Source of the DNA: a virus
DNA: 31,692 bases
Strand: one strand, 5' to 3'
Virus record (IMG/VR): IMGVR_UViG_3300030107_004249
Location: 1 to 31,692 of that record
Under the pieces are notes generated by a model. It ran no database searches. It was not told where the DNA came from and saw nothing but the letters and a program-made list of their open reading frames with translations. Position 1 is the stretch's first letter. Each line of letters opens with the position of its first letter. The translations under genes and the position numbers were made by a program. Of the stretch, positions 308 through 18,500 are shown in pieces.

Positions 308-333
308 ATATATGTAAAGTATAGTAATTTTTG

Positions 334-735
334 ATGGCCGTACAAATTTCTCGTGCATTTAAGGATATTAGTCTATCTTTTACACGAAGTCCTATTACTA
401 ATGACATTGTTACTCTTCGAAATGAAGATGCCATCAAGAAATCTGTCATAAATTTATGCCGAACTCGATTAACAGACAGGTTTTTTAACGAATTACTAGG
501 TACATCTATTGAAGATGCACTATTTGAGTTGGTTGGTGAAGATATTGGTGTCTCGTTGGAAGAAGAAATTAGATCTCTACTCAATAACTTCGAACCAAGA
601 ATCAAATTAACGCAAGTTAATATAGAAGATGATATAGATGAGAATGGATTATACATTACTATTCGTTATAATATCGTTGGATTACCTTTTCCAGAACAAA
701 ATATAGAGTTTCTCTTACAACCTAGCAGAATATAA
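334..735 (+). CDS. 25: gp25-like baseplate wedge subunit
   Basis: This 133-aa protein matches T4 gp25 (132 aa) in length. It carries the family's E-P-R motif at residues 87-89 (N-N-F-E-P-R-I), preceded by the typical L-E-E-E-I-R-S-L-L helix, and a C-terminal beta part. gp25 belongs to the sheath-initiating wedge core: it joins gp6 and gp53 in each baseplate wedge and seeds tail sheath polymerisation. I chose the ATG at 334. A TTG directly upstream (331) is in frame but adds only one residue. The stop overlaps the gp6 start by one base (TAATG), so the two are probably translationally coupled. The gp25-gp6 adjacency is common in marine T4-likes, whereas in T4 itself the genes lie in separate clusters. 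Confidence 0.94.
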   Translation: MAVQISRAFKDISLSFTRSPITNDIVTLRNEDAIKKSVINLCRTRLTDRFFNELLGTSIEDALFELVGEDIGVSLEEEIRSLLNNFEPRIKLTQVNIEDDIDENGLYITIRYNIVGLPFPEQNIEFLLQPSRI

Positions 736-2651
736 TGGCACTTAATCAGTTTACTAACTTAGATTTTAACGATTTACGCACTCAGATCAAAGATTATCTG
801 AGAGCTAACTCAACTTTTACTGACTTTGACTTTGAGGGATCTAATTTTTCCATATTAATTGACACTTTAGCATATAATTCCTACATTACTGCCTATAATA
901 CCAACATGGCAGTCAATGAATCGTTCATTGATAGTGCTACTTTAAGAGAAAATGTCGTTTCTTTGGCAAGAAATATAGGTTATGTACCAAGATCGAAGAA
1001 AGCTTCGGTTGCAAAGGTAAGTTTTAGTGTAGATGTAAGTGCAATAAAGGCAAAAACAGTCAAATTACATAAAGGATTGGTCGCAGTAGGCAATGTTCAG
1101 AACGGTTCCTACATGTTTTCAATACCTGATGACATTACTGCCAATGCAGATATCAATGGTTTAGTAACTTTTGACAATATTGATCTATTTGAAGGTACTC
1201 TTCTTACAAAACAATTCACTGTAGACTCGTCACAGACAGATGCAAAGTACATTTTACCTAATGTTAATATCGATACATCAACAATTAGAGTAGAAGTACT
1301 TAATGCTAATGGAATTTTAGAGACTTATAGCAAGTATGAGAACATTTTCCAAGTAGATAAGGACTCTAGATTGTTCTTAGTACAAGAAATTGATGATGAA
1401 AAGTACCAATTATTGTTTGGTGATGGTACTTTAGGTAAAAAAGCAGGTTCTACTAAGTCAGTTCCTACTGGTCACGGTAGTACAATAAAGGCAAGTTACA
1501 TTGTGACAAATGGAGAAGGTGGTGATGGAGCTGCTAATTTCGTATTTTCTGGTAAATTGACTTATAAGTTGGGTGGTGGTGATGTTGATATTACCTCTGG
1601 CATATCCCTTTTAACGACTGTACAATCGTCTGAAAATGGTTCTGATATAGAATCCCTAGATTCCATCAAATACCTTGCTCCAAGGGTCTATGCGTCGCAG
1701 CAGAGGGCAGTCACTGCAAATGATTACATTAGTTTAATTCCAAGTTTATTTGGAAATATAGACTCAGTAAGTGCCTATGGTGGAGAAGAACTTGATCCTC
1801 CAGAATACGGTAAGGTTTATATTACTATAAAACCAAAAAATGGTGAATTTTTATCGGATGTATCAAAAACGTCCATCAAGGCTGGATTAAAGCAATACAC
1901 TGTTGCTGGAATTAAGCAAGAATTTGTTGATCTAAAGTACCTTTATGTTGAATATGACTCAACTGTGTCATATGATCCAGGTCAAACTCAAACTTCTGAA
2001 GGATTGGCATCATCTATTAAGGGTGCAATTCAAGAATATTCAAAATCTAGTGATATCAATCAATTTGGTGGAAGATTAAAGTATAGTAAATTACTGAATA
2101 TTATTGATAAAGTCAGTAGTGCAGTAACTTCTAACATTACTGTTCTTAAGATGAGAAGGAATATGGTTCCTGTATATAATGCTTTTGCTAACTATGAGTT
2201 ATGCTATGGCAATAGATTCCATGCAGATCAAGAAGGATTTAATATTAGGTCTTCTTCATTCAAAATTGAAGGAGTACAAGGTGATGTTTATCTAACAGAT
2301 TTCCCAGATGATGAAACAGGAGCAACTGGGACAATAAAATTCTTTACTATGGTTGATGAAAAACCCAATTATATTAACAATAATGCAGGTAGTGTAGATT
2401 ATGTAAAAGGTGAAATATTAATCTATCCTATATCAATTTCCTCTACATCACTTACAGGTAGAATAGAAATTGAAGTTATTCCAGAATCTAATGACATTGT
2501 TGCAAAACAGAACCTTTATATTGTGCTAGATACTACAGCAAACAGTAAATTGACATTGTTAGAAGATATTATTACTTCTGGTTCCAACAAGTCTGGGGTA
2601 ACATATGTACCTCCATCAAGTTTTGTCAGCACTACAAAATATACAAGATAA
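735..2651 (+). CDS. 6: gp6-like baseplate wedge subunit
   Basis: The protein has 638 aa against 660 in T4. The N-terminal block F-T-D-F-D-F-E-G-S followed by L-I-D-T-L-A-Y-N corresponds to the T4 gp6 block with D-Y-D-F-E-G-S and L-C-D-L-L-A-Y-N. It is followed by the N-E-S-F-I-D-S-A-T-L-R segment and G-Y-V-P-R-S-K-K. The middle part contains the R-A-V-T-A-N-D-Y region near residues 325-332, also typical of the gp6/gpJ baseplate fold. gp6 dimers form the inner ring that holds the six wedges together around the hub. The start overlaps the gp25 stop by one base, and the next gene begins 3 bases after the stop, so the gene belongs to a compact wedge operon. The length is ordinary, without the insertions seen in gp8, gp14 and gp15. 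Confidence 0.94.
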   Translation: MALNQFTNLDFNDLRTQIKDYLRANSTFTDFDFEGSNFSILIDTLAYNSYITAYNTNMAVNESFIDSATLRENVVSLARNIGYVPRSKKASVAKVSFSVDVSAIKAKTVKLHKGLVAVGNVQNGSYMFSIPDDITANADINGLVTFDNIDLFEGTLLTKQFTVDSSQTDAKYILPNVNIDTSTIRVEVLNANGILETYSKYENIFQVDKDSRLFLVQEIDDEKYQLLFGDGTLGKKAGSTKSVPTGHGSTIKASYIVTNGEGGDGAANFVFSGKLTYKLGGGDVDITSGISLLTTVQSSENGSDIESLDSIKYLAPRVYASQQRAVTANDYISLIPSLFGNIDSVSAYGGEELDPPEYGKVYITIKPKNGEFLSDVSKTSIKAGLKQYTVAGIKQEFVDLKYLYVEYDSTVSYDPGQTQTSEGLASSIKGAIQEYSKSSDINQFGGRLKYSKLLNIIDKVSSAVTSNITVLKMRRNMVPVYNAFANYELCYGNRFHADQEGFNIRSSSFKIEGVQGDVYLTDFPDDETGATGTIKFFTMVDEKPNYINNNAGSVDYVKGEILIYPISISSTSLTGRIEIEVIPESNDIVAKQNLYIVLDTTANSKLTLLEDIITSGSNKSGVTYVPPSSFVSTTKYTR

Positions 2652-2654
2652 GAC

Positions 2655-5600
2655 ATGCTCGATAATACTAAAGTAAAAATCTCGAATATTCTGAGTAGCT
2701 TAATACCAGATTTTATTGAAGCAGATAATCCCAAATTCAAAGAATTTCTAGAACAGTACTATATCTTTGAAGAGCGTGAGTATGGAACAACAAATATTGC
2801 TGATGATTTATCAGAATATAAGGATATTGCTAAATTATCAGAAATTGAAACTGTAAGAGCACAAACTATACCTGTACCAGGAACACTTGTCCCACCACAA
2901 GTAGTTGCTCTTACTGCTGATGTACTTTCATTTGACGGTACTATAAACGTCACTCATACCAAGGGTTTTCCAAATACTTACGGTCTTTTAAAGATTGATA
3001 ATGAAATAATCACATATACTGGTAAAACTGCTACTTCATTTACTGGTTGTGCTCGTGGATTTAGCGGTATTAGTGCTATTGAAACAGAAGGAGATCCAGA
3101 GTTTTTAACTTTTAGTGAAACTGAGTCAGCTGAACATAGTGTTGGAACTGTAGTATTAAATCTTGGATTTGTCTTTATAGGGCAATTTTATAGTAAATTT
3201 AAAGAACAATTTCTTCCAGGAGTAGAGAAAAGATCTTTTGCTCCAGGTCTTTCTGTTGAAAATATATTAACCAGAGCAAAGGATTTCTATACATCTAAAG
3301 GAACTGACAGTTCTATTGATCTTTTATTTAAAGTTTTATATGCTAAAGATGTAGTAATAGACAAACCTTTCAATAATACTATATCTGTTTCTGATGCTGA
3401 ATGGCAAATTAGTGATGAGATAATGGTAGAAGCATTATCAGGTAATCCAATGAACCTGAAATTGTATAATTTATTTCAGGGTAGTGCTACTGGATTTTCT
3501 ACTAGTCCAACTGCAACTGGTGCAATATCTAATGTTGAAGAAGTATTTTTAGGAACAAAGGTATATCATAAGATATTTTTATCAAGAGATACTGTAAAAA
3601 ATAAGTTTGAAGTTAATAATAGAACAAAAGTATTAGAAAAAGGAGTTACCGAATCTGTAGTAACAGTGGATTCTACTGTTGGATTTGGTAATACTGGGTT
3701 CTTTTGGTACCCAAATTCACTTGGGACATATCAAAAAGTAGAATATACTTCAAAATCTTATAATCAATTCTTTGGTTGTGTAGGAATTGCAAGTACAAGC
3801 TTAGGAAAAAATACTCCAATAATTGGAGATCAATTCGTTTGGGGTTATGAAAATAATGATTTAGAAAAAGTTTGTCAGATGAGAGTAGTTGGATCTGTTA
3901 TAGATTCACCTAAAAGTGAAATTGAAGATACGCAATTCTATTCTGCAGGGGATCAAATTGGTGTAAAATATCTTGGAGATACAATTGATGAGTCTGATGT
4001 AAGATTTAATCAGTGGATTTATAATAATGCTATAGATTTTGATGTTGTTATAGAACAAATTGGTCCTGGAGGAATCCCAATTTCTGGTATTGATGCTGCT
4101 AATAAAATTATTACGACTATCGATAAGCATTCAGTTAAGAAATTATCTGATGCTACTATTGACGTATTTGAGAAGTTTAGTGGAAAGGTTCTTGACACTA
4201 ATGTAAAGGTAACTTCTATTACTGACAATAATATTGGTTATTATGGCAATGGAACAGGTGGAATACTTAAAAATGGAGTTCCAGTTGTTGGAACACATTA
4301 CACAATTAGATATAATTTAAGAAAAACAACTCCATCTATTGGATTAGACTACCTATTATCTGATATTCCTAACACATTTTCAGATAAAGAAGAAAATTGT
4401 ATTGCTGCTTTTTCGGGATATCCTTCTGGTGACTTTAATACTACAGATAGATCAAAAACATTCACTTCAAATGATGTTGGTCTTGTAGGTGCTGGAATAA
4501 CAATTACAAATCATGAATTTTTGCAAGGGGAAAAGGTATATTATCAACCATTAACTGCATCCACTGGAGTAATTGGTGCAAATGAGAATAGAAGTGGAAT
4601 AGAAACAGGAATTTATTATATTGGTGTTGTTGATGATGATCATATAAAACTTTCACTAACAAGACAAGCAATATTCACTAATGATACTTTATGGGATGAG
4701 ACTCCAGTATCACCAGCTGTTGGATTCCCAACTGGAACTGGAATAGATGAGCATAAAATTACTCCATATTCATTATATGTTGGTGGATCTCTAAAAAATC
4801 AAAATAATTTAAAAAGAATAAGAAAAGTTCCTGTAGATGCAAAAAATAGCAAAAATATTATTGGTCCAGTTGGAGTAGCAGTAAATGGACTAGAACTGCA
4901 TTCTGCATTGTCCAAGGATTCTGTTTATTATGGTCAAATTGATAAAATTAATGTTTTTAGTCCAGGTAAAGAATATAATATTGTAGAACCACCAAATGTT
5001 TCTGTTGCAGACAGTGTTGGTAGTGGAATAGAATCAATTGTTCATCTTGGAAATGGTTATATTTCGGATGTTGTTTTGACTAGTTCTGGATGGGATTATC
5101 AAGGTATTCCATCTGTTACAATAACTGGTGGTAATGGAACAAATGCCGAATGTAAGGCAAAAATGAAGTATATTACACACAAATTGACATTTAATGATAG
5201 TTTTGTTGATGTAAATTTACTTGTTGGTGATTATGGTAAATTTAATCTTTCTAAAGAACATAAACTTTTGCAAGGTGAAGCAGTAGTTTATAATGCAGAC
5301 CCCAATGGAGCTCCAGTTGGTGTTGGTAGTACTAATGTAGGATTATCTACTAGTGTATTAACAAATGGTGGAACTTATTACGTAATTAAGAATAGTAATA
5401 CTAGTTTTTCTCTAGCATTAACTAGAGAAAGAGCAGTTGCTGGTATCAATACTATTCAATTTACAACAGATGGATCTGGAATACACAAAATAACAGCAAA
5501 GAGGAAAAGACGTATTGTTGATACTATAAGTGTAGAAACTCCTGGTAAGAATTTTGCATATAATAGAGTTGATATAGATTCTTATAGATACGCTCCAACT

Positions 5601-8600
5601 ACACAAATTGGCATATTAACTACATTTACAGGAATCAGTACAGAAAATAATTACATATATGCAAGAAATCATAATTTTGGTCATGGAGATGTAGTAACTT
5701 ATTCGCATAGTGGAACTGCAATTTCTGGGTTATCAACAGCATTATATTATAAAGTAACTGTCGTTGATAAGAATAATTTCAAGTTAAGTGAAGCTGGAAC
5801 TGCGACTACCATTAGTAATCATAATTTTGATAATAGAATTTATAGTGATTTGAATAGTATCGGAGTTGGTACTCACACATTTACATATCCAGATGTAAAA
5901 GTAACAATAGAGGGTATAAGTGCTGTTGGTATTGGAAGTACAGTTCTTCCATCATATCTCAATGCTACTGCATATGCCAATTTGGAAGGAAGTGTAAGTA
6001 ATATATTCATTAAACGTGGAGGAATAGGATATGGATGCTCTACTATAATTAATCATATTAGGCAACCAAATATTACTTTACAAACTGGACAAGATGCCAG
6101 GGTTGGTTGTATTGTTGATGTTAATGGGGTTGTTGTTGCTACAGTTATTAATGATCCTGGAAAAAATTATTCAACTCCACCAATTCTAAAGGTTATTGGT
6201 TCTGGAGTATTTGCAAAATTAAAGGCAACAGTTGTTAACGGTAAAATAGATTCTATTGATATTATTGATGGTGGAGTTAATTATACTCAAGGACAAACAA
6301 CAGTAGAAGTTATTCCTGCAGGATCTGAAGCATTATTTAAAGCAGATATTCATAAGTGGAGTGTTAATAGTGTAGAAAGATATTCTCATATATTGAGTTC
6401 TGCATTGTATCAAGATACAGTTCAATTAAGATCCACTATAAAGGCAAAAGGAAATAAAATTTGCTCATTCTATCCTCAGAAACAACTTAGAATGGATTTG
6501 GATGATAATTTAAATTCTGACAAGACCGAAAAGATATCTGATTTGAAGCATTCTCCAATTATTGGTTGGGCTTATGATGGAAATCCAATTTTTGGTCCTT
6601 ATGGTAAACCACCAGGAGTTGGTGTTAAGAAAATGCAATCTAGTTATATTATAGATGCAGTATCAGATTCTAATCTAAGACCACAATATGTTAATGGTTA
6701 TTTTGTTGAGGATTATTTCTATGATCAAGATAGTGGAGATTTAGATGAATATAATGGAAAATATCTAACTCCTGGTGAAAGCGATGATTTCCCAAATGGA
6801 ACTTATGGATATTATGCATCAATACAAGATACTCCAACAACAACTCCAACTTTCCCATATTTACCATTTAGACATTATAATGATACTGATGAGTTTAATT
6901 ATGAGTTATTAAGAAATCAAAGTGATGATTATATTAATACTGGTGAATATAAGAGGAATGTTACTAATTATGGTTATAATGTAGATAATACAAGATATAG
7001 TTTTCATATAGATCCGTTAAGTTCTAAAGCACTTTTAGAAGTAGAAGAAATAAGATCTGCTGGTGTTACTACTGTTAGCATGGATGTTGCAGGAGATAAG
7101 TATAAAGTTGGTGAACTTGTATCTTTCTCTGACTCATCTTCCGTTAGCGGAAAAATTAAAGAAATCGCTGGTAAAGATATTCAAACAATTTCTTTAACTG
7201 AAACAGCTGTTAAAAATTTAAAATTCCAAGTTATTGAGGATCAAGTGACTGCATTCAGTACTGTTCCACATAATTATATTGATAGTGAAATAGTACAAAT
7301 TTCTGGTATTAGTTCAGCACTATTCAGTCACATTGAAGGTGCTAGAGTTGTTGGTGTTAAGACAGTTACTACTGCACTTTCTGTTGGACTTGCTAATACT
7401 GCAAATACTGGACTTACAACTTTTATAAAACTTTCCGAATCTACTATATCTGATAGATTTGATATTGGAGATATAATTAAAATTGGTAATGAGCAAATGC
7501 GTATCCTTCAAAAGGATCATTATAATAATAGATTTAGAATAGCAAGGACACAAAATGGAACAGTTGCAGCTGGATCTGGTATAGCAACTGGAACTGCTGT
7601 TTCAAAAGTTCCTCATGAGTTTACATATAAAGTCAAGAAAAAGGTAAAAAATAAAAACTTACAATTTAGTAGAAAATTCAATTTTGACGGTGAATTGGCA
7701 GTTGGTATAGGAAGTACAGTAAAATCAACCATTGTTGGTTATTCTGGTATTAGTACAATTTACAAATCCATACCACAAGGTGCCATTTATCTTCCTGGAC
7801 ATCAATTTAAAACTGGTGATGAATTGTCTTATGTTGCTTATGGTAGCACAATAAAATATGCAAATAATACTGATTTGACTCCAGAACTTGATTTAGCTGG
7901 TATTGGTTCCATATATGCTATTAAATTTAATGATGAATTTATTGGTATAACGACTGGTACTAGAGTTGGAATAACATCTGATAATATAGGGTTCACTAAT
8001 GTAATGAAATACTTTACAGTTGCTAGTGGACATGATCATAGATTTGAAACTATTGAAGATAATATTGCAGGAGAATCTAAGAGAGTACAAGCAACTGTTG
8101 CAGTTAGTACTTTTACTGGATCTCATGGGTTAGCATTAAATGACAATATTACCTTTAAGATTACCCCAAATTTAACACAAAATTATGCGTTTAAGTTTGA
8201 CGATAATTTCAATAAATTGGTAACCAATCATATTGGGTTTACTACAAACTTAGTTGGTGTTGGAATAGGTACAACAAATTCATTAATCAACCTTACAAAT
8301 CATGGATATAGTACTGGTGATCAAGTAATCTATAAAGCTACAAATCCAATAACACCATTAGAAACAAATACAATTTATCATGTTATAAAGGTATCTGATA
8401 GTGAAATTAAATTAGCTTTAAGTAATTATAATGCGACTAATAAAGATCCTTATGATCACATTTACTTCACTAATTCTGGTAGTGGTAATCATGAACTTGC
8501 TAGAGTACATCCACCTTTACAATTCTATAGAGGAAATAAGATAGAATTGGATGTTTCAGATACTAGTATGTCTGATTTTAATATTAATTTCTATTATGAT

Positions 8601-11600
8601 GAAAAATTTGAATCTAGATTTGAGTCCGATTTAATTAAAAAACCAAGTGCGAGTGAATTTGGTAATACTAGTCCATCTTCTAAAATTACTATAGATGTAG
8701 ATGAAACTTTCCCACAAATTCTTTATTATAAACTTGAAGGTACTGGACCAAATTATACTAGTACATATCCATCATCTGTGGATACTGACGTACCAAATCA
8801 TTCTAAAATAAACGTTGTAGAATCTGATTTAAATGGAACTCATAGGGTTACTGGTGTTGCAGGAACTACGTTTACTGTAAGTTTGGTTGGTAGTGCAGAA
8901 ACAACTTCATATACTTCTTCTGGATTTAGTACTGCAATCTATAGTAGCGATTCTACTAATATTAGAGGTGGTATACACTCATTAAAAATTGTTAATAGTC
9001 TTCCAGTGTATAGTTTACCTAAAGTTGTTTCTGTTGCAACTACAACTGGATCTGAAGTTATATTCTCAGAAAAAGGAGATGATATTGGTGAGATTTTAAA
9101 TATCGGTGTTGTTAATCAGGGTCTAGAATATTCGAGTGATAAAACTTTAGCACCTAAAGCTGATGCATATACTATTTTAAAGTTGAAAAATGTATATACA
9201 TTAGATTCTGTTGGAATAATAACAGGTGGAAATAATTATACATCTTCACCAATAGTGACATCAATTGGAAACCCTTCTATTATATGCTCTGCTTCAATAT
9301 TGGGTAATTCTGTATCTGAAGTTGAAATATTAGCAAATGATAGTGGTTTATCTAAAGATCTGCAGATGATACCTACTGTCAATTCAAATGGTGTTAAAGT
9401 TATAAGTGCAAGTTCTAATTTTGCTGTTAATACTCTATTTTTAAGAGCTCCAGTTACTGGATTTACTACTTTCCCATTTAAAGTTGGTGATGAAGTTTAT
9501 ATTGAGAATATCAATATAACTGATAATATGGATGGATATAATTCCAGTGATTATGGTAATAGAAACTTCACAATAACAGAAGTTGATGAAACTGGTGGTC
9601 AGGAAAGTATTAAGTATTCAATTGCTGGTATAGGAAGTACTGGTGGAACTTATGATACTAATAATGCTTTTGGTAGAATCGTGAAAGTTGATGATTTAGC
9701 AATATTTCAACCAAATCTGAAGAAAGTTGAGTTTGTTGAAGGTGAAAAAATATCACAAGATAATGGTGTTTATGGTTATGTTGTAAAGGATGGTTGGGAT
9801 CCAGATGCACAAACATTGAAAATTAAAGGTAATAGAGGAAGATTTGAAGCTGATCAAAAGATTACTAGTTCTTTGAATAATTCTAAATCTATCATTCAAA
9901 CTGTCTATGATTATGATTTTAATCTATCTGTAGATAGTATTGCTCTTAAATCAACTGATTGGGAAACAAATAAAGGTAAGTTGAATTTTGATAGTCAAAG
10001 AATACATGATAATGATTATTATCAGAGATTCTCTTATGCAATTAAGGGTGAGGTTCCTTACGAGACATGGAAAGAACCTATTACAAGTCTAGGGCATATA
10101 TCTGGTTATAAACCATTTGCAGACTATGAAGTTCTTAATGGATTAGGTACTACTGTTGGATTTGGTTCAGCAAGTGGAGATGTTCTATTGAATATTGAAA
10201 TGATTAGTGAAGCTTCAGTTCATGACAGATATTATTATGATTTTGTATCTGATGATACACCTAATCCAAACTTAACTAAAATTATTACCTTTGATTCTAA
10301 GGTTCTTACTGATTATAGTGAATCTAGATCAAATAAAGTTCTTTTACTTAAGGATATTGGAGATCAATTTAGTGGACAAACAAAAACATTTACTGGTGAG
10401 CATAAGTTCATAAGAAGTGATGGTGCTGATAAAATCAGTAAAGTTTCTGGTGGAAGTGGTCAATTAACTGCAACACAAGGAACTAGTTACGATGCATCTA
10501 CTGGCGTATTGACTATTGTTACTACCACAGCACATAAATTAGTTGCTGGTGCTACCATTTCTATGGCAGATTACTCTTTAGTGTTTAGATGTGATTTAGA
10601 TGGGTTTATGACTGATCATGCCTATCCTCGTCCAACAGATCCTGCATCCACTTCAAATAGTAAGTTTAATAATGGTGTATTAGCAATTGGAAATACTACT
10701 GAGACTTCATTTGATGTCACGATTAATAATCCCATAGAAGGTGGTCAAATTGTTGGATTAACAACTTTTGCACTTTACACTATTGGTGATTCTGATACAT
10801 TAACATCAGCTGCTAGTACTGAAAGATTATTTTATAAGACAGTTCAACCTGGTATAGGTGTCAGTGTAGATACCAATACTGTTACGATAAATGGACATAG
10901 TTTTAGTAATGGAGAACCATTAGAGTATTCTTCAAATGGTGGAACTAGAATAGGAATTGCTACAGCAACTATAGGTGCTGGTACTACAACATTCTTACCA
11001 GATAAAGTATGGGCAATTGTATCTGTAACTGATGGTGTATTAGATCAAAAAGACTTTAAATTGGCATCTTCCTTATCAAATGCAAATGCTGGTACTGCTC
11101 TTACTATTACTGGTATTGGTACTGGAAATACGCATACTTTCTCTGTACCTTCAGAACTTGCTACTACTAGGACAGTAATATCAATTGATAATATCATACA
11201 AAGTCCATTAACTAGTAAAGTCGCTATTGGAATTTCATTATCACAAGCTGTTGGAGTTGGAACAACTACATTGTGGTTGCAAGATGTATCTAAGGTAGAG
11301 GGTGGTGCTTTATTGAGACTTGAGCAAGAAATAATGAAAGTGAATACAGTTGGTGTAGGGTCTACAAACTCATTAAACGTTGATAGGGGTGTGATGGGTA
11401 CTGTAGCAGTTGCACACACTGTTGGAGCAGGTTTAACCTATCTTACAGGTGATTATAGGATAAAAGATGGAAATATTCATTTCTCAACTCCACCATATGG
11501 ACCAACAGGAATAAGTTCAAATACTACTAGATCATCATTTGATGGAAGATCATTCTATAGATTAGATTATCAGTATAATACTACTTTTGATGATGTTTCT

Positions 11601-13919
11601 GAAGATTTTGATGGTCAAACTGCTAAATTCTGGTTAACTAAAGATGGAACTGAAATATCAGGTATTCAAACAAATTATGGAATGGTTTTGGTTAACAATA
11701 TATTCCAAGATCTTCATTATGGTGAAGGTGGTTCTAGTCTATCAGATTCTGATTATAGAATAGTAGGATATGGAAATTCTATTGATTTTACTGGAATTGC
11801 AACTAATAATGATCTTCCTAAAGGTGGAATTATTAATGAGTATAGTGTATTTCCTGGAGTTGGTATTCAATCTGCCTATGGTGCTGTTGGTGTCGCCTCT
11901 GTGGGTGCTGGTGGAACTATCAGAGAAGTAAGTATAGGAAATAGTGGTTCTGGTTACCTAATTGCACCTAGAGTCGGTATTGCAATCACTAATTATCACT
12001 TTACACATAATTTTATTAGTGCATCTCCAAATTGTCTTACTGCAGGTGGTGGAGCATCGGGAACCCTTACTCCTACATTTGCAACTTATGAGTCCACAAC
12101 AGGTGATTTGGTATTAACAATTCCCGATCATACTCTAACAACCAGTAATACTGTTCGGATTACTGATGAAACATTAGTATTTACATGTTCTAGAGATGGA
12201 TTTGTATCTGAGAAGAAATATCCTAGATCAACTGATCCAGCTTCTGGGGAAGATCTAACAATTAGTAATGCAAATGGGAATACAATTACTGTCAATGTGG
12301 GTACAGGAGCAGGAATAGGAGCTTCATTTACTGCATCAATAAACAATGGACAGATTACTGGAATAACAGTAACAAATCCTGGAAGTGGATATACAGCAAC
12401 ATATCAACCAATTTTGGAAATTGACCCACCATCACCTTGGAGAGGATTGCCATTGAAAGGTGGATTGGGAGTTGGAGCATCTATGGATGTTACTGTTGGT
12501 ACTGCTGGAAGTGTTATTACTTTTGAACTTTCAAATCCTGGTTATGGATATAGTACTGGTGATGTTTTATCACTAGATCCTGTGCCTTATAAGGTTGGAG
12601 TTACTTCTACACCATTTACAATTACAGTTAATAACAGGTATCAAGACAAGTTCTCTGGATGGAATTTTGGAAAACTATTAGAATTGGATGATCTTAGTTA
12701 CTTGTTTAATGGATTCAGGAGATCATTCTTGATAACAAGAACAGTAACTAATAGAGAGTATTTCAGTATTATTGCTAAAGAGGGTTCTGGAATAGTTCTT
12801 GCCAATAATTTAATGATCTTTATTAATGATGTTTTACAAAAACCAGTAGTTGATTATAGTTTCAATAAAGGTACTAGAATAACATTTAATGAAGCACCTA
12901 AGAGAGGAAGTAAGTTTAGAATGTACTTATATGTTGCATCTAGAGATGATTATTTTGAAGTTGACGTAGATCAAACAGTCAAGGAAGGTGATAGACTGCA
13001 AATTCAACCTTGGGATTGGGGTAGTATTGTAGGACAAGATCAGAGGATAATTTATGAATTACTTGCTTCTGATACAGTTGAAACTCAAACATATAGTGGT
13101 TCTGGTATTAGAACTGATAATGTTCAGAGACCAGTAGTGTGGACAAAACAAAAATCTGACACATATATTGATGGTGAAGTAATATCTAAGGCTAGAAATT
13201 ATTTGGAACCACAAATAATGCCTAATACTAATATTATTGCTTCTGTTGCTGCTACTGATACTAAAATATATGTGAAGAATGTATATCCTACATTTAGTCA
13301 ATATGATGATATTGCCACTAATTTAAATAATATTAGAATTGTTGGATTAGGAACAACTGCTTTTGACAGTGGTAATGTTGAGAAAATAAAAGGAGTATCT
13401 TATTCTGGTGATTATGGTCAGGTAATTGGTATAACTACTGCCATAATATCAAGTCCTATAGTTGCAGAACAAGTTAAGTTCCTATTAACTCCTGCTCCTG
13501 AATGTATAACAGACCATGCTAAACCTGGTATAGATACTGGGGATTATTTTGTAATTCAAGATGTATTCCCCAATGTTGCAACAAGTATAACTTCTCTTGG
13601 GGTAAATACAAGTACCACAGTATCAGTTGGAATTGGTAGCATAAACACTGTATATCAAGCATATGCAGTTTCTGTTGGATCTTCTACTGTTGAAGTGACA
13701 TGTAATGTATCATCTGTATCAGGGGTTACAACAACTGCACTTCCTGCTCCATATCTTGGTGCTACTAATCGTAATGCAGGATCATATACTTGGGGTAAAA
13801 TTCAAGTAAGTAGAACTACATCATCTGAAGCATTTGATTTCTTTAATCAAAATGGTTTGGCAGGTATTGAGACATCAGCATATGTATCAAGAATTATACC
13901 ATTGAAAACTACATTATAA
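2655..13919 (+). CDS. Giant gp7-slot baseplate/virion structural protein (3754 aa) with YHYH domain and beta-module repeats
   Basis: One uninterrupted frame of 3754 codons lies 3 bases after gp6, where T4 has gene 7 (1032 aa). Residues 14-40 (I-P-D-F-I-E-A-D-N-P-K-F-K-E-F...Q-Y-Y) and 208-236 (A-K-D-F-Y-T-S-K-G-T-D... F-K-V-L-Y) resemble two blocks of the C-terminal half of T4 gp7 (M-P-D-S-Y...; Y-D-F-Y-S-T-K-G... F-K-V-L-Y). I infer an N-terminal gp7-like wedge domain. After it come 'NHxFxxGDxVxY' modules, G-x-G-Y modules, a YHYH domain (about 1299-1392), a cupredoxin-like F-Y-R-G-N stretch near 1955, a duplicated D-G-F...Y-P-R-x-T-D-P-A-S unit, and an I-F-I-N-D-V-L-Q-K-P domain near 3390. 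No signal peptide or membrane segment is visible. It probably projects from the baseplate, anchored by the N-terminus. The reading frame is firm. The gp7 assignment is from memory of T4 and moderate. Confidence 0.8.
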   Translation: MLDNTKVKISNILSSLIPDFIEADNPKFKEFLEQYYIFEEREYGTTNIADDLSEYKDIAKLSEIETVRAQTIPVPGTLVPPQVVALTADVLSFDGTINVTHTKGFPNTYGLLKIDNEIITYTGKTATSFTGCARGFSGISAIETEGDPEFLTFSETESAEHSVGTVVLNLGFVFIGQFYSKFKEQFLPGVEKRSFAPGLSVENILTRAKDFYTSKGTDSSIDLLFKVLYAKDVVIDKPFNNTISVSDAEWQISDEIMVEALSGNPMNLKLYNLFQGSATGFSTSPTATGAISNVEEVFLGTKVYHKIFLSRDTVKNKFEVNNRTKVLEKGVTESVVTVDSTVGFGNTGFFWYPNSLGTYQKVEYTSKSYNQFFGCVGIASTSLGKNTPIIGDQFVWGYENNDLEKVCQMRVVGSVIDSPKSEIEDTQFYSAGDQIGVKYLGDTIDESDVRFNQWIYNNAIDFDVVIEQIGPGGIPISGIDAANKIITTIDKHSVKKLSDATIDVFEKFSGKVLDTNVKVTSITDNNIGYYGNGTGGILKNGVPVVGTHYTIRYNLRKTTPSIGLDYLLSDIPNTFSDKEENCIAAFSGYPSGDFNTTDRSKTFTSNDVGLVGAGITITNHEFLQGEKVYYQPLTASTGVIGANENRSGIETGIYYIGVVDDDHIKLSLTRQAIFTNDTLWDETPVSPAVGFPTGTGIDEHKITPYSLYVGGSLKNQNNLKRIRKVPVDAKNSKNIIGPVGVAVNGLELHSALSKDSVYYGQIDKINVFSPGKEYNIVEPPNVSVADSVGSGIESIVHLGNGYISDVVLTSSGWDYQGIPSVTITGGNGTNAECKAKMKYITHKLTFNDSFVDVNLLVGDYGKFNLSKEHKLLQGEAVVYNADPNGAPVGVGSTNVGLSTSVLTNGGTYYVIKNSNTSFSLALTRERAVAGINTIQFTTDGSGIHKITAKRKRRIVDTISVETPGKNFAYNRVDIDSYRYAPTTQIGILTTFTGISTENNYIYARNHNFGHGDVVTYSHSGTAISGLSTALYYKVTVVDKNNFKLSEAGTATTISNHNFDNRIYSDLNSIGVGTHTFTYPDVKVTIEGISAVGIGSTVLPSYLNATAYANLEGSVSNIFIKRGGIGYGCSTIINHIRQPNITLQTGQDARVGCIVDVNGVVVATVINDPGKNYSTPPILKVIGSGVFAKLKATVVNGKIDSIDIIDGGVNYTQGQTTVEVIPAGSEALFKADIHKWSVNSVERYSHILSSALYQDTVQLRSTIKAKGNKICSFYPQKQLRMDLDDNLNSDKTEKISDLKHSPIIGWAYDGNPIFGPYGKPPGVGVKKMQSSYIIDAVSDSNLRPQYVNGYFVEDYFYDQDSGDLDEYNGKYLTPGESDDFPNGTYGYYASIQDTPTTTPTFPYLPFRHYNDTDEFNYELLRNQSDDYINTGEYKRNVTNYGYNVDNTRYSFHIDPLSSKALLEVEEIRSAGVTTVSMDVAGDKYKVGELVSFSDSSSVSGKIKEIAGKDIQTISLTETAVKNLKFQVIEDQVTAFSTVPHNYIDSEIVQISGISSALFSHIEGARVVGVKTVTTALSVGLANTANTGLTTFIKLSESTISDRFDIGDIIKIGNEQMRILQKDHYNNRFRIARTQNGTVAAGSGIATGTAVSKVPHEFTYKVKKKVKNKNLQFSRKFNFDGELAVGIGSTVKSTIVGYSGISTIYKSIPQGAIYLPGHQFKTGDELSYVAYGSTIKYANNTDLTPELDLAGIGSIYAIKFNDEFIGITTGTRVGITSDNIGFTNVMKYFTVASGHDHRFETIEDNIAGESKRVQATVAVSTFTGSHGLALNDNITFKITPNLTQNYAFKFDDNFNKLVTNHIGFTTNLVGVGIGTTNSLINLTNHGYSTGDQVIYKATNPITPLETNTIYHVIKVSDSEIKLALSNYNATNKDPYDHIYFTNSGSGNHELARVHPPLQFYRGNKIELDVSDTSMSDFNINFYYDEKFESRFESDLIKKPSASEFGNTSPSSKITIDVDETFPQILYYKLEGTGPNYTSTYPSSVDTDVPNHSKINVVESDLNGTHRVTGVAGTTFTVSLVGSAETTSYTSSGFSTAIYSSDSTNIRGGIHSLKIVNSLPVYSLPKVVSVATTTGSEVIFSEKGDDIGEILNIGVVNQGLEYSSDKTLAPKADAYTILKLKNVYTLDSVGIITGGNNYTSSPIVTSIGNPSIICSASILGNSVSEVEILANDSGLSKDLQMIPTVNSNGVKVISASSNFAVNTLFLRAPVTGFTTFPFKVGDEVYIENINITDNMDGYNSSDYGNRNFTITEVDETGGQESIKYSIAGIGSTGGTYDTNNAFGRIVKVDDLAIFQPNLKKVEFVEGEKISQDNGVYGYVVKDGWDPDAQTLKIKGNRGRFEADQKITSSLNNSKSIIQTVYDYDFNLSVDSIALKSTDWETNKGKLNFDSQRIHDNDYYQRFSYAIKGEVPYETWKEPITSLGHISGYKPFADYEVLNGLGTTVGFGSASGDVLLNIEMISEASVHDRYYYDFVSDDTPNPNLTKIITFDSKVLTDYSESRSNKVLLLKDIGDQFSGQTKTFTGEHKFIRSDGADKISKVSGGSGQLTATQGTSYDASTGVLTIVTTTAHKLVAGATISMADYSLVFRCDLDGFMTDHAYPRPTDPASTSNSKFNNGVLAIGNTTETSFDVTINNPIEGGQIVGLTTFALYTIGDSDTLTSAASTERLFYKTVQPGIGVSVDTNTVTINGHSFSNGEPLEYSSNGGTRIGIATATIGAGTTTFLPDKVWAIVSVTDGVLDQKDFKLASSLSNANAGTALTITGIGTGNTHTFSVPSELATTRTVISIDNIIQSPLTSKVAIGISLSQAVGVGTTTLWLQDVSKVEGGALLRLEQEIMKVNTVGVGSTNSLNVDRGVMGTVAVAHTVGAGLTYLTGDYRIKDGNIHFSTPPYGPTGISSNTTRSSFDGRSFYRLDYQYNTTFDDVSEDFDGQTAKFWLTKDGTEISGIQTNYGMVLVNNIFQDLHYGEGGSSLSDSDYRIVGYGNSIDFTGIATNNDLPKGGIINEYSVFPGVGIQSAYGAVGVASVGAGGTIREVSIGNSGSGYLIAPRVGIAITNYHFTHNFISASPNCLTAGGGASGTLTPTFATYESTTGDLVLTIPDHTLTTSNTVRITDETLVFTCSRDGFVSEKKYPRSTDPASGEDLTISNANGNTITVNVGTGAGIGASFTASINNGQITGITVTNPGSGYTATYQPILEIDPPSPWRGLPLKGGLGVGASMDVTVGTAGSVITFELSNPGYGYSTGDVLSLDPVPYKVGVTSTPFTITVNNRYQDKFSGWNFGKLLELDDLSYLFNGFRRSFLITRTVTNREYFSIIAKEGSGIVLANNLMIFINDVLQKPVVDYSFNKGTRITFNEAPKRGSKFRMYLYVASRDDYFEVDVDQTVKEGDRLQIQPWDWGSIVGQDQRIIYELLASDTVETQTYSGSGIRTDNVQRPVVWTKQKSDTYIDGEVISKARNYLEPQIMPNTNIIASVAATDTKIYVKNVYPTFSQYDDIATNLNNIRIVGLGTTAFDSGNVEKIKGVSYSGDYGQVIGITTAIISSPIVAEQVKFLLTPAPECITDHAKPGIDTGDYFVIQDVFPNVATSITSLGVNTSTTVSVGIGSINTVYQAYAVSVGSSTVEVTCNVSSVSGVTTTALPAPYLGATNRNAGSYTWGKIQVSRTTSSEAFDFFNQNGLAGIETSAYVSRIIPLKTTL
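4489..11155 (+). repeat. Dispersed 'NHxFxxGDxVxY...YYVxxxxxxxFKL' protein modules in the giant gene
   Basis: At least six diverged copies share H-x-(F/Y/L)-x-x-G-(D/E)-x-V-x-Y, then an I-x-G-L/T-x-x-x-Y-Y or I-Y segment, then F-K-L/I-K-L-(S/A). Approximate positions are 4489-4770, 5244-5498, 5652-5896, 7785-7977, 8278-8510 and 10866-11155. The third copy is the cleanest (N-H-N-F-G-H-G-D-V-V-T-Y ... L-Y-Y-K-V ... F-K-L-S). Copies differ too much at DNA level to be recent tandem duplications. The alternation of short beta segments suggests small beta-sandwich modules in series. Confidence 0.75.
6549..6830 (+). other. YHYH domain within the giant protein
   Basis: Residues about 1299-1392 read H-S-P-I-I-G-W-A-Y-D-G-N-P-I-F-G-P-Y-G and, about 45 residues later, L-D-E-Y-N-G-K-Y...F-P-N-G-T-Y-G-Y-Y. 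These are the two hallmark blocks of the YHYH family (G-W-x-x-D-G-x-P-I-Y-G; L-D-x-x-N-G-x...F-P-x-G-T-Y-x-Y). The domain is widespread in marine bacterial secreted proteins and in T4-like marine phage structural proteins, and its biochemical role is unknown. Here it is embedded among repeat modules, not at a terminus. Confidence 0.85.
10497..12246 (+). repeat. Duplicated D-G-F...Y-P-R-x-T-D-P-A-S unit in the giant gene
   Basis: Two copies of about 51 residues lie at 10497-10650 (residues 2615-2665) and about 12093-12246 (residues 3147-3197). Each begins S/T-T-G-x-L-x-x-T, passes through H-x-L-x-x-x-x-T-(I/V)-x-(M/I)-x-D and L-V-F-x-C-x-x-D-G-F, and ends Y-P-R-x-T-D-P-A-S. Spacing within the unit is kept, while the sequence between the copies (about 480 residues) is unrelated to it. 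This is an internal duplication or separate acquisitions of one module. Confidence 0.8.
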
Positions 13920-13961: not shown

Positions 13962-15545
13962 ATGCCAGCTGTAATCACAGATCAGTTTAGAATATCAAAT
14001 GCTGAAACTTTTGTTCAAAGTTTTGTCGGGGTAGGTACAACTGCAAATTATTATTATACATTTTTAGCTCATCCGAATCCGCAAGGACTCTATAATGAGG
14101 TCGAAAACTATGGAACGGATACTTGGAATACAATTCCTCCAAGTCCGAAAGATTCATTTGAACAGGAGTATTCATACCATGATAGTATGCTCTTTTTGAA
14201 AAAGGTTGGTGTTGAAGACGTTTCTAGAATTATTCCTAGATATGATTGGCAGAATGGTACTACCTATGACATGTATAAGCATAATTATGATATTAATAAT
14301 CCAACATCTCAATTAAACTCTAAAACTCTATATGAAGGAAAATATGTTGTAGTAAATTCTGAGTATAAAGTTTATCTTTGTATAAACAATGGTGCAGAAC
14401 CAGAAAATCCAAAAGGTAAAAAATCTTTAGTAGAACCAAATTTTGTTTCAACTATACCTCAGGCTGCATCTGTTAATGCACAAGATGGTTACTTATGGAA
14501 GTATTTGTTTACTATTTCTCCTGCTAATGTTATAAAATTTGCTACTGATGATTATATACCTCTTCCAAAAAACTGGGGTGATGCTAATACAATAACAGTA
14601 AAGAATGCTGCTGTAGATGGAGCATTACAAACTATAGTAATTTCTACTAGAGGAACCAATTTCCAATTTAGTGAAGGAACAACACTTAGAGTTCCAGTAT
14701 ATGGTAATGGTGCTGGTGGAGAAGCAACAGTAACTATTGCTAATGGGGAAATTTCCACTGCTGAAATTACATCTCCAGGAACTGGATACACTAGGGCATT
14801 CATACGGGTTCAAAGTGGTGTTAGAGGGTTGAATTCTGATACTTCAGGAGATCTAGTACAAGTTACTAGTGGAAGTGGAGCAACATTTGAAATTCCATGC
14901 CCACCAAAGGGAGGACATGGTGATGACATTTATAGGGAGTTGGGTGCTCATAGAATAATGGTTTATTCTAAGTATGATAGTGATCCTGATTATATAATTG
15001 GAAATAACTTTGCTAGAGTTGGGATTATAAAGAATCCTACCATATATGGTAGTGACACAGTGAGACTAAATACTGGAAATGCCACTGCTCTTGGAGCACT
15101 AAAATTAGTTACTCCAGCAACAACTTCAACTGACAATTATGCAGTTAACACTAAATTAACACAAACAGTAGGAGTAGGTTCAACGGCAGTTGCATATGTT
15201 GGTGCATACAGTAGGGTAACTAATGTCTTAAGATATTTTCAACCAGCTGGACTTTCAACAAGTGCTACCTATGGTTATAAGGTTTTACCTTTCAGTAATG
15301 CTGTTGGTGTCAACACTTCAATAGTTCCATCTGCTGGACCTACATTACCTTTAGATACATCATTTAGTGGATCATCTGAAACATTAGCAGGAAAAGTAGT
15401 TCAATATGGTCAACAATTTACCAATGGAATTGCTCCACCTGACATTCAAAAATATTCTGGTGAAATAATCTATGTTGATAACAGAGCACCAATCACGAGA
15501 TCCACATCTCAAAAAGAAGAATTAAAAATCGTAGTAGAATTCTAA
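13962..15545 (+). CDS. 8: gp8-like baseplate wedge subunit, enlarged (527 aa)
   Basis: Several blocks match T4 gp8 (334 aa): I-I-P-R-Y-D-W near residue 90 (T4 V-I-P-R-R-D-W), D-G-Y-L-W-K-Y-L-F-T-I (T4 D-G-Y-V-W-E-Y-L-F-E-I), D-D-Y-I-P-L-P, V-G-I-I-K-N-P, and the C-terminus Y-S-G-E-I-I-Y-V-D-N-R-A-P-I...E-E-L-K-I (T4 H-S-G-E-M-I-Y-M-E-N-R-P-P-I...E-E-I-N-I). In T4, gp8 is a dimeric wedge protein bound to gp7 and gp10. The extra length sits in two places: a G-x-G-Y module (about 14614-14830) and a stretch of V-G-V-G-S-T type (about 15060-15430), both between conserved gp8 blocks. A late promoter precedes it at 13937. The next gene starts 3 bases after its stop. Confidence 0.93.
   Translation: MPAVITDQFRISNAETFVQSFVGVGTTANYYYTFLAHPNPQGLYNEVENYGTDTWNTIPPSPKDSFEQEYSYHDSMLFLKKVGVEDVSRIIPRYDWQNGTTYDMYKHNYDINNPTSQLNSKTLYEGKYVVVNSEYKVYLCINNGAEPENPKGKKSLVEPNFVSTIPQAASVNAQDGYLWKYLFTISPANVIKFATDDYIPLPKNWGDANTITVKNAAVDGALQTIVISTRGTNFQFSEGTTLRVPVYGNGAGGEATVTIANGEISTAEITSPGTGYTRAFIRVQSGVRGLNSDTSGDLVQVTSGSGATFEIPCPPKGGHGDDIYRELGAHRIMVYSKYDSDPDYIIGNNFARVGIIKNPTIYGSDTVRLNTGNATALGALKLVTPATTSTDNYAVNTKLTQTVGVGSTAVAYVGAYSRVTNVLRYFQPAGLSTSATYGYKVLPFSNAVGVNTSIVPSAGPTLPLDTSFSGSSETLAGKVVQYGQQFTNGIAPPDIQKYSGEIIYVDNRAPITRSTSQKEELKIVVEF
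14614..14830 (+). repeat. G-x-G-Y module inserted in gp8
   Basis: About 72 residues hold two units: I-V-I-S-T-R-G-T-N-F and then A-E-I-T-S-P-G-T-G-Y, with G-N-G-A-G-G-E-A-T-V-T-I between them. They separate the gp8 block ending D-Y-I-P-L-P-K-N-W from the block V-G-I-I-K-N-P, which are close together in T4 gp8. The units resemble those of the giant protein and gp14. Confidence 0.8.
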
Positions 15546-15548
15546 CAA

Positions 15549-18500
15549 ATGACACAGAATACTAATTTAAATATTTCGCCATATTTTGACGATTTTGATG
15601 CAAGTAAGAACTATAATAAAGTCTTATTTAAGCCTGGATTTCCTGTCCAAGCAAGAGAATTAACTACGCTTCAAACTATTCTTCAGAATCAAATAGAGAA
15701 GTTTGGACAATATTTCTTTAAGGAGGGATCCACAGTAATTCCTGGTGGTACTCTTTACGATAATAGGTATTTTGGGGTAAGAGTTGATGCAAAGTTTTTA
15801 AATATTCCTGTTAATGCATATACTAAAGTATTATCTGATAATAAAATTAAGATAAAGGGAGAAATAACTGGAGTAACCGCAACAGTAGTTAATAGGATTA
15901 CAGAAGTAGAATCTGAAGATAATTTTGATACTCTATATGTTAAGTATACAGGATCTGGTAGTGATGGAGAAACTAGAGAATTTCAGGATGGAGAGAATTT
16001 AATTACTCTTGCTGATGTTCCATATGCTAATACAAAGATTTCTGCAAATAGTACTTTTGCCAAATGTATTGATACTGGAGCAACTAAAACAGGATGCTCT
16101 GCTTCTATAACAGAGGGTATCTATTTTATTAGAGGATATTTTGTAAAAGTCCCAACTGATACTATAATTTTAGATCAATACAGTAATTCTCCAAGTTATA
16201 AAATTGGACTTGCTATAACAGAAAAAATTATTTCTGCTTCTGCTACAAATTCGGATTTATATGATAATGCACAGGGATTTTCTAATGAAGCAGCACCAGG
16301 TGCTGATAGATTTTCCATTGATGTGGAATTAACTAAGAAATTATTAACTGATGAAGAAGATAAGAACTTTATTGAGTTAATTCGTGTTAATGACGGTGTT
16401 CTTGAAAAATTCCATGATGGTACTCCAGAATTTAACTTCTTTGCTGATGCGTTAGCAAGAAGAACGTATGAAGAATCTGGAGATTACTACGTAAGACCAT
16501 TTTCTATTGATGTAAGGGAATCCCTTAATGATAGAATTTCTAATAGAGGATTGTATCTAGAAAATCAAACAACACAGAATGGAAATACTCCTTCTGATGA
16601 CATATATTGTCTTCAGATGTCTCCAGGTAGAGCATATGTCAGAGGACATAGAGTAAGTAAAGATTTCACTTCAGCAATTGACGTAGTAAAACCAAGAACT
16701 ACAAATTTAAAAGAGAATGTTAGTGTTCCAGTTAGAACTGGTAATGTTATAAGTGTCAATAATATAAAGGGAGCTCCAAAAATAGGATTTACATCTTCAA
16801 CTCAATATTCTATTGATTTATTAGACAGCAGACTTGCATCTACAGGTATAAAGGAAACTACTGCTGAAACTATTGGTAAAGCAAGAGTTTATGATTGGAT
16901 GGAGAAAGATGTCACATCTCTTGGATTTACGACTACTAAGTATGAAGCTAGATTATATGATATCCAATTATATACTAAAATAAACGTTGAACTTGCATTA
17001 ACTGCTACTGCAAATGATCATGTTGAAGGAAAGTATAGTGGTGCTGAAGGGTTTGTAGTAAGTACTACTTCTAGTTCTAGAGATTTCACTCTACAAGATG
17101 TTAGAGGACAATTCCACATAAATGAACCACTATTACTTAATGGTGTTGATATTGGAAGAAATGTTGGCGTATCTACAGATCATAGTTTTGAAGATGTCAA
17201 GGCAATTCAAAATACTGTTGGTATTAATACCTTTGCTGCTGATTTAGATTTAGATCGTAAGAAAAATGTATTTACTGAAGGTACAGAGTTTAGTATTAGT
17301 AACAGTTCTGGTGCTAATGGTACTGGATTCTCTACTGTTACTTCTGGTAGTGTTCCTGATGTTAGGGGATATGTTAAAGTTGGTGATATCTTAAGATATG
17401 CTAATGCTGGTCAAGGTGATCCACACTTCAACCAAGTTCAACAGATTGGTACTAGTGGAACAAGTTTCCAAATAAAAGCTATTGCAACTGTTCCTGGAGT
17501 TTGTCAAGGTACAATTTCAAATGGTAGTCCAACTGGATTGTCAGTTCCAATTTCAACTCTAAATGATGCAGATAAGGTTGGTCTTAGGGTTCCTATGGCT
17601 GACAAGTACGTATCGTCAATGAATGTATTAGATTCATCTTATGTGTTAAGGAAGCAACTTGATAAACAAACTAATGGTTCTGGACAGGTAGTATTTAACT
17701 TAGCAGATCTTAATGATGACAATTTATTCTTTGAACCATATACATCTGATGATTTTATTTTAAATCGTGCTACTGATGGAAATACTGGTAATGGTGCCAG
17801 AGTCAATCTTCAGAAAGTACAAGTTGTGGAAGATGCTGGTCTAAGAACTTTAACAATTAATGGTCTAGCCGCAAGTAAAATATACACTTTAACAGCAACT
17901 TTAAAAAGAAGTAAGTTAGAATCAAAAGCTAAGAAGATTGTAAGATGTAGTGATCTTATTGTAAGAAAATCTAAGTACGATGGTTCTGGTATAGGTGTAA
18001 GTTTTACATTCAATGATGGTTTAAACCGTGATGCAAGTGGTGGTGTAATATCTGCTGCAGATAGAAAAGGATATGGAACTAGAGTACAAGATAGAGAAAT
18101 TTGCTTAAATTATCCAGATATACATAGAGTTCTTGGTGTATTTGAATCGAATAGTACAAGTGATCCAACTATTCCATCATTAACCGTAAGTATTGCTTCA
18201 CAATCTGATGTATTTACTGGTAATAATGTAACTATAGGTGAACAAATAATTGGTAATACTTCAGGAGCTCTTGCTCGTGTAGTAAGAGTTGTTACTTCAA
18301 ATCAATTGGAATTTGTATATGAAAATCAAAAAAGATTCGAAGTTCAAGAACTTATTACTCTAAGATCTTCTTCTATTATTGGTAATATTAGTCTACTAGT
18401 AACTGGTGATAGAAATATTATGAGTGATTTTGATGTTGATAAAGGTCATAGAGCAGAATTTGTAGATTATGGTAGACTTGTAAGGAAAAAGAATTCTCCC

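Follow-up and report, generated by a model that had tools for sequence, protein, structure and literature searches.

Which protein stands at the gene 7 position of a T4-like baseplate block when that position is filled by a giant of 3754 amino acids, and how is such a protein put together? We followed this question in a 31,692-base virus fragment from IMG/VR (record IMGVR_UViG_3300030107_004249), which was analysed over its whole length and is referred to here as the window. A single frame of 3754 codons (406 kDa) lies open on its + strand, free of internal stops, while each of the remaining five frames carries 190–567 stops over the same interval. GC content at codon positions 1, 2 and 3 is 0.44, 0.41 and 0.13, the third position thus being AT-rich. 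The frame starts three bases past the end of gp6 and is followed downstream by gp8, so the giant that a preliminary description had placed at the gene 7 position is real. The genes needed for the argument are:

331..735, + strand: gp25 wedge protein (PF04965, phrog_261)
735..2651, + strand: gp6 wedge protein, the expected partner of the gp7 core (phrog_219, E=2.9e-189; PF21379)
2655..13919, + strand: probable giant gp7-type baseplate wedge protein, 3754 aa, 406 kDa (open frame; phrog_2885 'baseplate wedge subunit', E=0)
13962..15545, + strand: gp8 wedge protein with one copy of module A (PF09215, phrog_438; module A 3.2e-11)
15549..22946, + strand: VrlC-like second giant, not gp7 (DUF4815, phrog_358; N, M and C core segments absent)

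Beyond the second giant, the block continues through small genes to gp13, gp14, gp15, gp16 and gp17. The order gp25–gp6–giant–gp8 fits the position of T4 gp7; T4 gene 25 itself lies elsewhere, and gp6–gp7–gp8 is the order in common. None of the block's PHROG or Pfam matches in the window names gp9, gp10, gp11, gp12 or wac, and the window holds no RNA families or tRNAs. The match of the giant to phrog_2885 (2211 bits; best stretch 4–2577) is to a profile of 4179 positions, and a phmmer search with the full giant protein against the PDB returned no matches. As had been presumed, similar giants occur in other marine phages: relatives of the first 333 residues were found in 467 phage records, nearly all cyanophages, with the closest isolate about 45% identical to the N-terminal part. 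The GenBank name 'gp7 baseplate wedge initiator' already stands on the giants of S-SSM7 (3007 aa) and P-SSM4 (7312 aa). Neither the existence of the giants nor their family is therefore new; the split core set out below is undescribed in the literature searched.

Three segments link the giant to T4 gp7:

2676..2831, + strand: gp7 core segment N (residues 8–59; T4 gp7 645–676), segment HMM 2e-12 in the window and 3e-3 in T4, decoys at least 0.013
3255..3410, + strand: gp7 core segment M (residues 201–252; T4 gp7 733–758, 'DFY.sKGt..s...LFkvLy'), 3e-14, reciprocal PHROG matches, PDB profile
9990..10142, + strand: gp7 core segment C (residues 2446–2496; T4 gp7 862–908, 'YQ.FSY.iK....W......H..G'), 3e-14 in the window and 2e-5 in T4, best decoy 1.7e-3

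At segment M, giant residues 201–243 match T4 gp7 724–765 through phrog_964 (E=7.6e-6), and T4 gp7 in turn matches phrog_2885 (E=1.3e-4). With an hhalign value of 5.9e-9 for the region, the gp7 likeness noticed earlier at residues 208–236 holds in both directions. A profile built from 30 relatives of residues 1–360 and compared with the whole PDB was significant only for T4-type gp7 (1.5e-5 and 4.2e-5), no other baseplate family matching better, and a profile of the small relatives reached gp7 at 1.9e-11 and 6e-9. The neighbouring stretch 14–40, likewise described as gp7-like, aligns in register with T4 645–683; its T4 order and the segment HMM support the likeness, but the direct T4 match is weak (hhalign E 0.12, not significant alone). 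Segment C was first seen as a conserved element ('YQ.FSY.iK....W......HPaG') in small same-locus proteins (Synechococcus phage BUCT-ZZ01, 607 aa; Methylophilales phage Melnitz-3, 896 aa; Pelagibacter phage HTVC008M, 1016 aa), in many IMG/VR relatives and in T4 862–908. Direct comparison of the window-type segment with T4 gave an hhalign value of 0.005.

A core HMM made from the small relatives only recovers the giant at residues 8–59, 174–349 and 2418–2497 (4.5e-9, 3.2e-17 and 1.4e-12), and also matches seven T4-type gp7s in two collinear pieces at full-sequence E-values of 4e-13 to 2e-11. Separate HMMs for N, M and C found all three segments, in T4 order, in 21 of 21 proteins tested, the window protein and T4 gp7 included. 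The best values among 441 reversed and shuffled decoys were 0.013 for N, 1.1e-5 for M and 1.7e-3 for C. Given that T4 gp7 itself scores 3e-3, 1e-12 and 2e-5, the link to T4 rests on M, C and the common order. The segments lie in a single ORF at the gp6–gp8 locus in all nine complete or near-complete Kyanoviridae genomes and were found in none of the other window ORFs tested. No second gp7 turned up elsewhere in those nine relatives, the window itself being a 31.7-kb fragment. Three Pfam domains found in T4 gp7 (PF21427, PF21428 and PF21456) had no reported match in the window protein. The idea that simple contractile systems have the gp7 core in common comes from published knowledge; P2 gpI was not recognisable as a relative (hhalign of the core profile against the single P2 gpI sequence, E=0.42).

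We put at roughly four in five the probability that the giant ORF is the gp7 orthologue (baseplate wedge initiator) of a Kyanoviridae-type T4-superfamily phage, its core split in three and expanded at three sites. The preliminary description had read it otherwise: only the N-terminal 260 residues would be gp7-like, the N-terminal half of T4 gp7 would have been lost, and some 3500 residues of unrelated modules would have been appended behind the anchor as a free-ended skirt or fibre. N and M do sit at the N-terminus, the core does have some 1260 residues behind it, and the relatives lack the N-terminal half of T4 gp7. But the third core segment, more than two thousand residues further on and kept in those giants that extend that far, contradicts a likeness confined to the N-terminus and places most of the modules inside the core rather than behind it. 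The series of small proteins likewise shows modules nested between M and C, and core-first proteins in Stenotrophomonas, Desulfovibrio, pelagiphage and methylophage lineages make a loss no simpler. We regard the appended arrangement as very improbable.

The N-terminal half of T4 gp7 (residues 1–640) found nothing at E<=1 in the nine Kyanoviridae genomes, and the phrog_964 match of the giant is confined to residues 205–242. The same half has matches in 1432 phage records; the host groups named there are T4-type and include no cyanophages, and it would thus appear to be specific to a lineage and no hallmark of gp7. The non-T4 lineages checked (including Stenotrophomonas phage DLP6 and Desulfovibrio phage 7757) are also core-first, and if the T4 lineage gained the half, no other lineage has to have lost it; such a gain is therefore likelier, though not proven, than a loss here. 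The half is hence missing from the giant as first described, but its loss is the less parsimonious account.

Gp7 has been stated to be absent from pelagi- and cyanomyophages and replaced in function by VrlC (PMC7029224), and the HTVC008M annotation at this locus indeed does not carry the T4 gp7 name. The HTVC008M ORF between gp6 and gp8, however, has N at 6–47, M at 189–243 and C at 759–820, whereas VrlC of this phage is encoded by another ORF, downstream of gp8 (phrog_358), that has no core segments. The window repeats this division: phrog_358/DUF4815 has no match in the giant ORF and is matched by the ORF at 15549–22946. VrlC-type giants resemble the gp7 giant as neighbouring, very large virion genes, but belong to a different family and lack the gp7 core segments. 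A true absence of gp7 is the least probable of the readings that we weighed, and the split core argues, against the published statement, that gp7 is present in these phages. Cyanomyoviruses and pelagimyophages are abundant marine T4-like phages.

Public records interchange the names 'head closure Hc2', 'VrlC' and 'gp7'. The HTVC008M gp7 (L085:33435-36485) is listed as 'head closure Hc2' and that of S-MbCM7 (L294:1-10602) as 'VrlC'. Two proteins carrying the GenBank name 'gp7' were rejected, S-MbCM7_079 (L294:12576-21038) as a phrog_358 member and S-SSM7_103 (L003:26090-32933) as fibre-like. The C-terminal part of S-SSM7_103 resembles the end of phrog_2885 (3359–3793), as if a piece of X3, the stretch behind the core, were a separate gene elsewhere.

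The three insertion sites differ greatly in size. In the giant, X1 (between N and M) spans 141 aa, X2 (between M and C) 2193 aa and X3 (behind C) 1258 aa; the extent of X2 is:

3411..9989, + strand: insertion X2 inside the gp7 core (residues 253–2445; modules A, B, D, YHYH and unassigned sequence), core HMM matches on both sides

The corresponding lengths are 56, 103 and 124 aa in T4 gp7, where about 640 residues precede N; 27, 175 and 174 aa in a 555-aa relative (L119); and 628, 2801 and 3715 aa in P-SSM4. By these distances, the bulk of the extra mass of the giant is nested inside the gp7 core, with a smaller tail behind it. N, M and C serve as common landmarks in same-locus proteins of 555 to 7312 aa, which form a natural series for the growth of a structural protein by nested insertion; a still smaller core is seen in Desulfovibrio phage 7757 (587 aa; M 84–136, C 237–289). 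T4 gp7 (PDB 5hx2, 5iv5; phrog_964) shares with the giant the gp6–gp7–gp8 position and the order of N, M and C. The giant differs from it in lacking the 640-aa N-terminal half, in the size of X2 (2193 vs 103 aa) and in carrying modules absent from T4 gp7. Other Kyanoviridae giants (phrog_2885; S-SSM7, P-SSM4, S-SZBM1) have the same family, locus and split core as the window protein, but their sizes and insert sites vary. The small core-first gp7s (BUCT-ZZ01, Melnitz-3, HTVC008M, DLP6 with 1288 aa, and phage 7757) contain the same three segments with the core N-terminal; unlike the giant, they have inserts of 100–515 aa (vs ~2190) and one, two or no copies of module A.

Structure prediction fared better on a small relative than on the giant. 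The AlphaFold model of window residues 1–360 was poor (pLDDT 53.9), and its top Foldseek match, T4 gp7 5hx2_A, did not reach significance (E 0.019, prob 0.21). For the 555-aa relative, modelled complete, the prediction was confident at 140–310 only; its top three PDB matches by Foldseek were all gp7 (9f4a, 5iv5 and 5hx2; E 1.4e-5 to 3.4e-4, prob 0.99–1.0), with gp18 next, at low TM-scores of 0.14–0.17. A search of the literature found no cryo-EM structure of any Kyanoviridae baseplate.

The inserts are made up in part of recurring modules, detected by HMM iteration; a BLASTP self-comparison of the giant gave none at the threshold used. They comprise:

2910..3149, + strand: module D, a beta domain inserted at X1 (residues 86–165), module HMM 7e-36; second copy at residues 327–409
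4470..4688, + strand: module B copy (residues 606–678); further copies at 5229-5450, 5628-5825, 7758-7985, 8259-8450 and 10854-11099, HMM 1e-15 to 1e-20
4920..5222, + strand: module A (GxGY) copy (residues 756–856); further copies at 5976-6329 and 12237-12599 and a weaker one at 8955-9392, module HMM
6528..6827, + strand: YHYH domain (residues 1292–1391), PF14240, 59 bits against a cut-off of 25
10467..10754, + strand: module E, putatively mobile, 'YPR', copy 1 (residues 2605–2700), 43% identical to copy 2, E=2e-16
11985..12299, + strand: module E copy 2 (residues 3111–3215), phrog_1276, E=1.1e-19, presence/absence polymorphism

Module A occurs six times in the window protein, 15 times in P-SSM4, twice each in HTVC008M and Melnitz-3, and once each in BUCT-ZZ01 and the 555-aa relative. 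By hhalign, the copies in the giants and the single module of the small gp7s are the same module (E=4.5e-10), a comparison that shows X2 to have been built partly by amplifying the GxGY module, present in a single copy in small gp7s. This single module resembles T4 gp18 domain I in a PDB profile search (3e-8 to 2.6e-6), in Foldseek (prob 0.97–1.0) and against Pfam PF22639 (gp18 domain I; 3.3e-5, just below the family cut-off). The giants' own copies have no direct match: compared with T4 gp18 they are not significant (E 0.1), and Pfam yields nothing for them. Their gp18 likeness would thus hold by transitivity, through the small gp7s. The six copies of module B found no convincing relative in the PDB. 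Outside the giant, a gp14-like neck ORF (26292-28295) has about six copies of module A behind its gp14 part, and the VrlC-like giant has one. On this distribution, module A has spread to many virion proteins.

Module E ('YPR..DPAS'), an unrelated module in X3, is, at both of its sites, cleanly present in some giants and absent from others that are otherwise colinear; the giants compared include L020, L036, L055, L059, L066 and L069. The module (phrog_1276) recurs at 801 sites across 318 phage records, the named organisms among them being nearly all cyanophages. We read this polymorphism as direct evidence that the giants grow or shrink by whole modules. A hypervariable C-terminus, which the gap profile had seemed to indicate, was rejected, the gaps being due to truncated contigs and to the two module E sites.

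With a YHYH domain and repeated beta modules, the giant could also be primarily a receptor-binding or tail-fibre protein, in which a short gp7-derived adaptor docks on the wedge and the 2000-residue insert is an adhesin; genes for the tail fibre and the baseplate are indeed where S-TIM4 has its host-adaptation mutations (PMC6224464). Core segments close X2 off on either side, however, and separate fibre-like ORFs exist in the relatives (phrog_5342, phrog_17885). Because X2 is colinear, ~30–53% identical throughout 12 divergent giants and interrupted by few gaps, it looks like a scaffold in its pattern of conservation, unlike typical adhesins. An adhesin thus seems unlikely to us, if somewhat less so than the alternatives discussed above.

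That giants of this kind are built into particles is known for an orthologue. S-SZBM1_208 (6619 aa, 724 kDa) was identified in purified virions by mass spectrometry with 71 peptides (PMC9146016 Table 1); we found it to have the split core (N 7–58, M 694–747, C 3529–3583) and to adjoin a gp6-like gene in the same gene block. ORF122 of S-CREM2 (~1940 aa), which belongs to the baseplate wedge block of that phage, yielded 91 virion peptides (PMC10665884). A wedge protein of ~400 kDa that makes a skirt or fibre, as was suggested at the outset, is accordingly borne out as a virion protein of the 400-kDa class by way of an orthologue (PMC9146016), but the skirt or fibre is still something that we infer.

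How might such a protein work? In the T4 wedge, the gp7 core joins gp6 to start wedge assembly. By analogy, the three core segments of the giant would fold together and bind gp6. Since the core is split, X2 would have to depart from the wedge and return to it; with both its ends pinned there, it would project as a closed multi-domain lobe and not as a free fibre, as the split core predicts for the extra mass, and X3 would be the sole free arm. Assuming one copy per wedge as in T4, six copies of the 406-kDa chain would add ~2.4 MDa to the outer baseplate. Cyanomyoviruses lack g10, g11, g12 and wac, which raises the question of what substitutes for these baseplate proteins of T4 (PMC2984593); it is plausible on this ground that the giant does some of the scaffolding of the missing gp10/gp11/gp12 layer. 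Host contact would then more likely fall to the mobile modules of the tail and to separate fibre proteins. In its fullest form, which we offer as a tentative proposal, less probable than otherwise, the wedge initiator would itself be the outer baseplate: a closed loop of 2000–2800 residues set into the gp7 core, grown by duplicating a sheath-domain-like module that the core region already had, would form a multi-megadalton layer that replaces the gp10–gp11–gp12 shell of T4 in abundant marine T4-like phages.

Two further observations concern gene content. The annotation of HTVC008M lists the curli transport genes CsgF and CsgG at L085:7562-9557, unrelated to the gp7 finding. In P-SSM4 (L291:1-29102) and S-SZBM1 (L299:7690-34108), two or three additional virion genes separate gp8 from the giant gp7; the window differs from both in that gp8 directly follows the giant.
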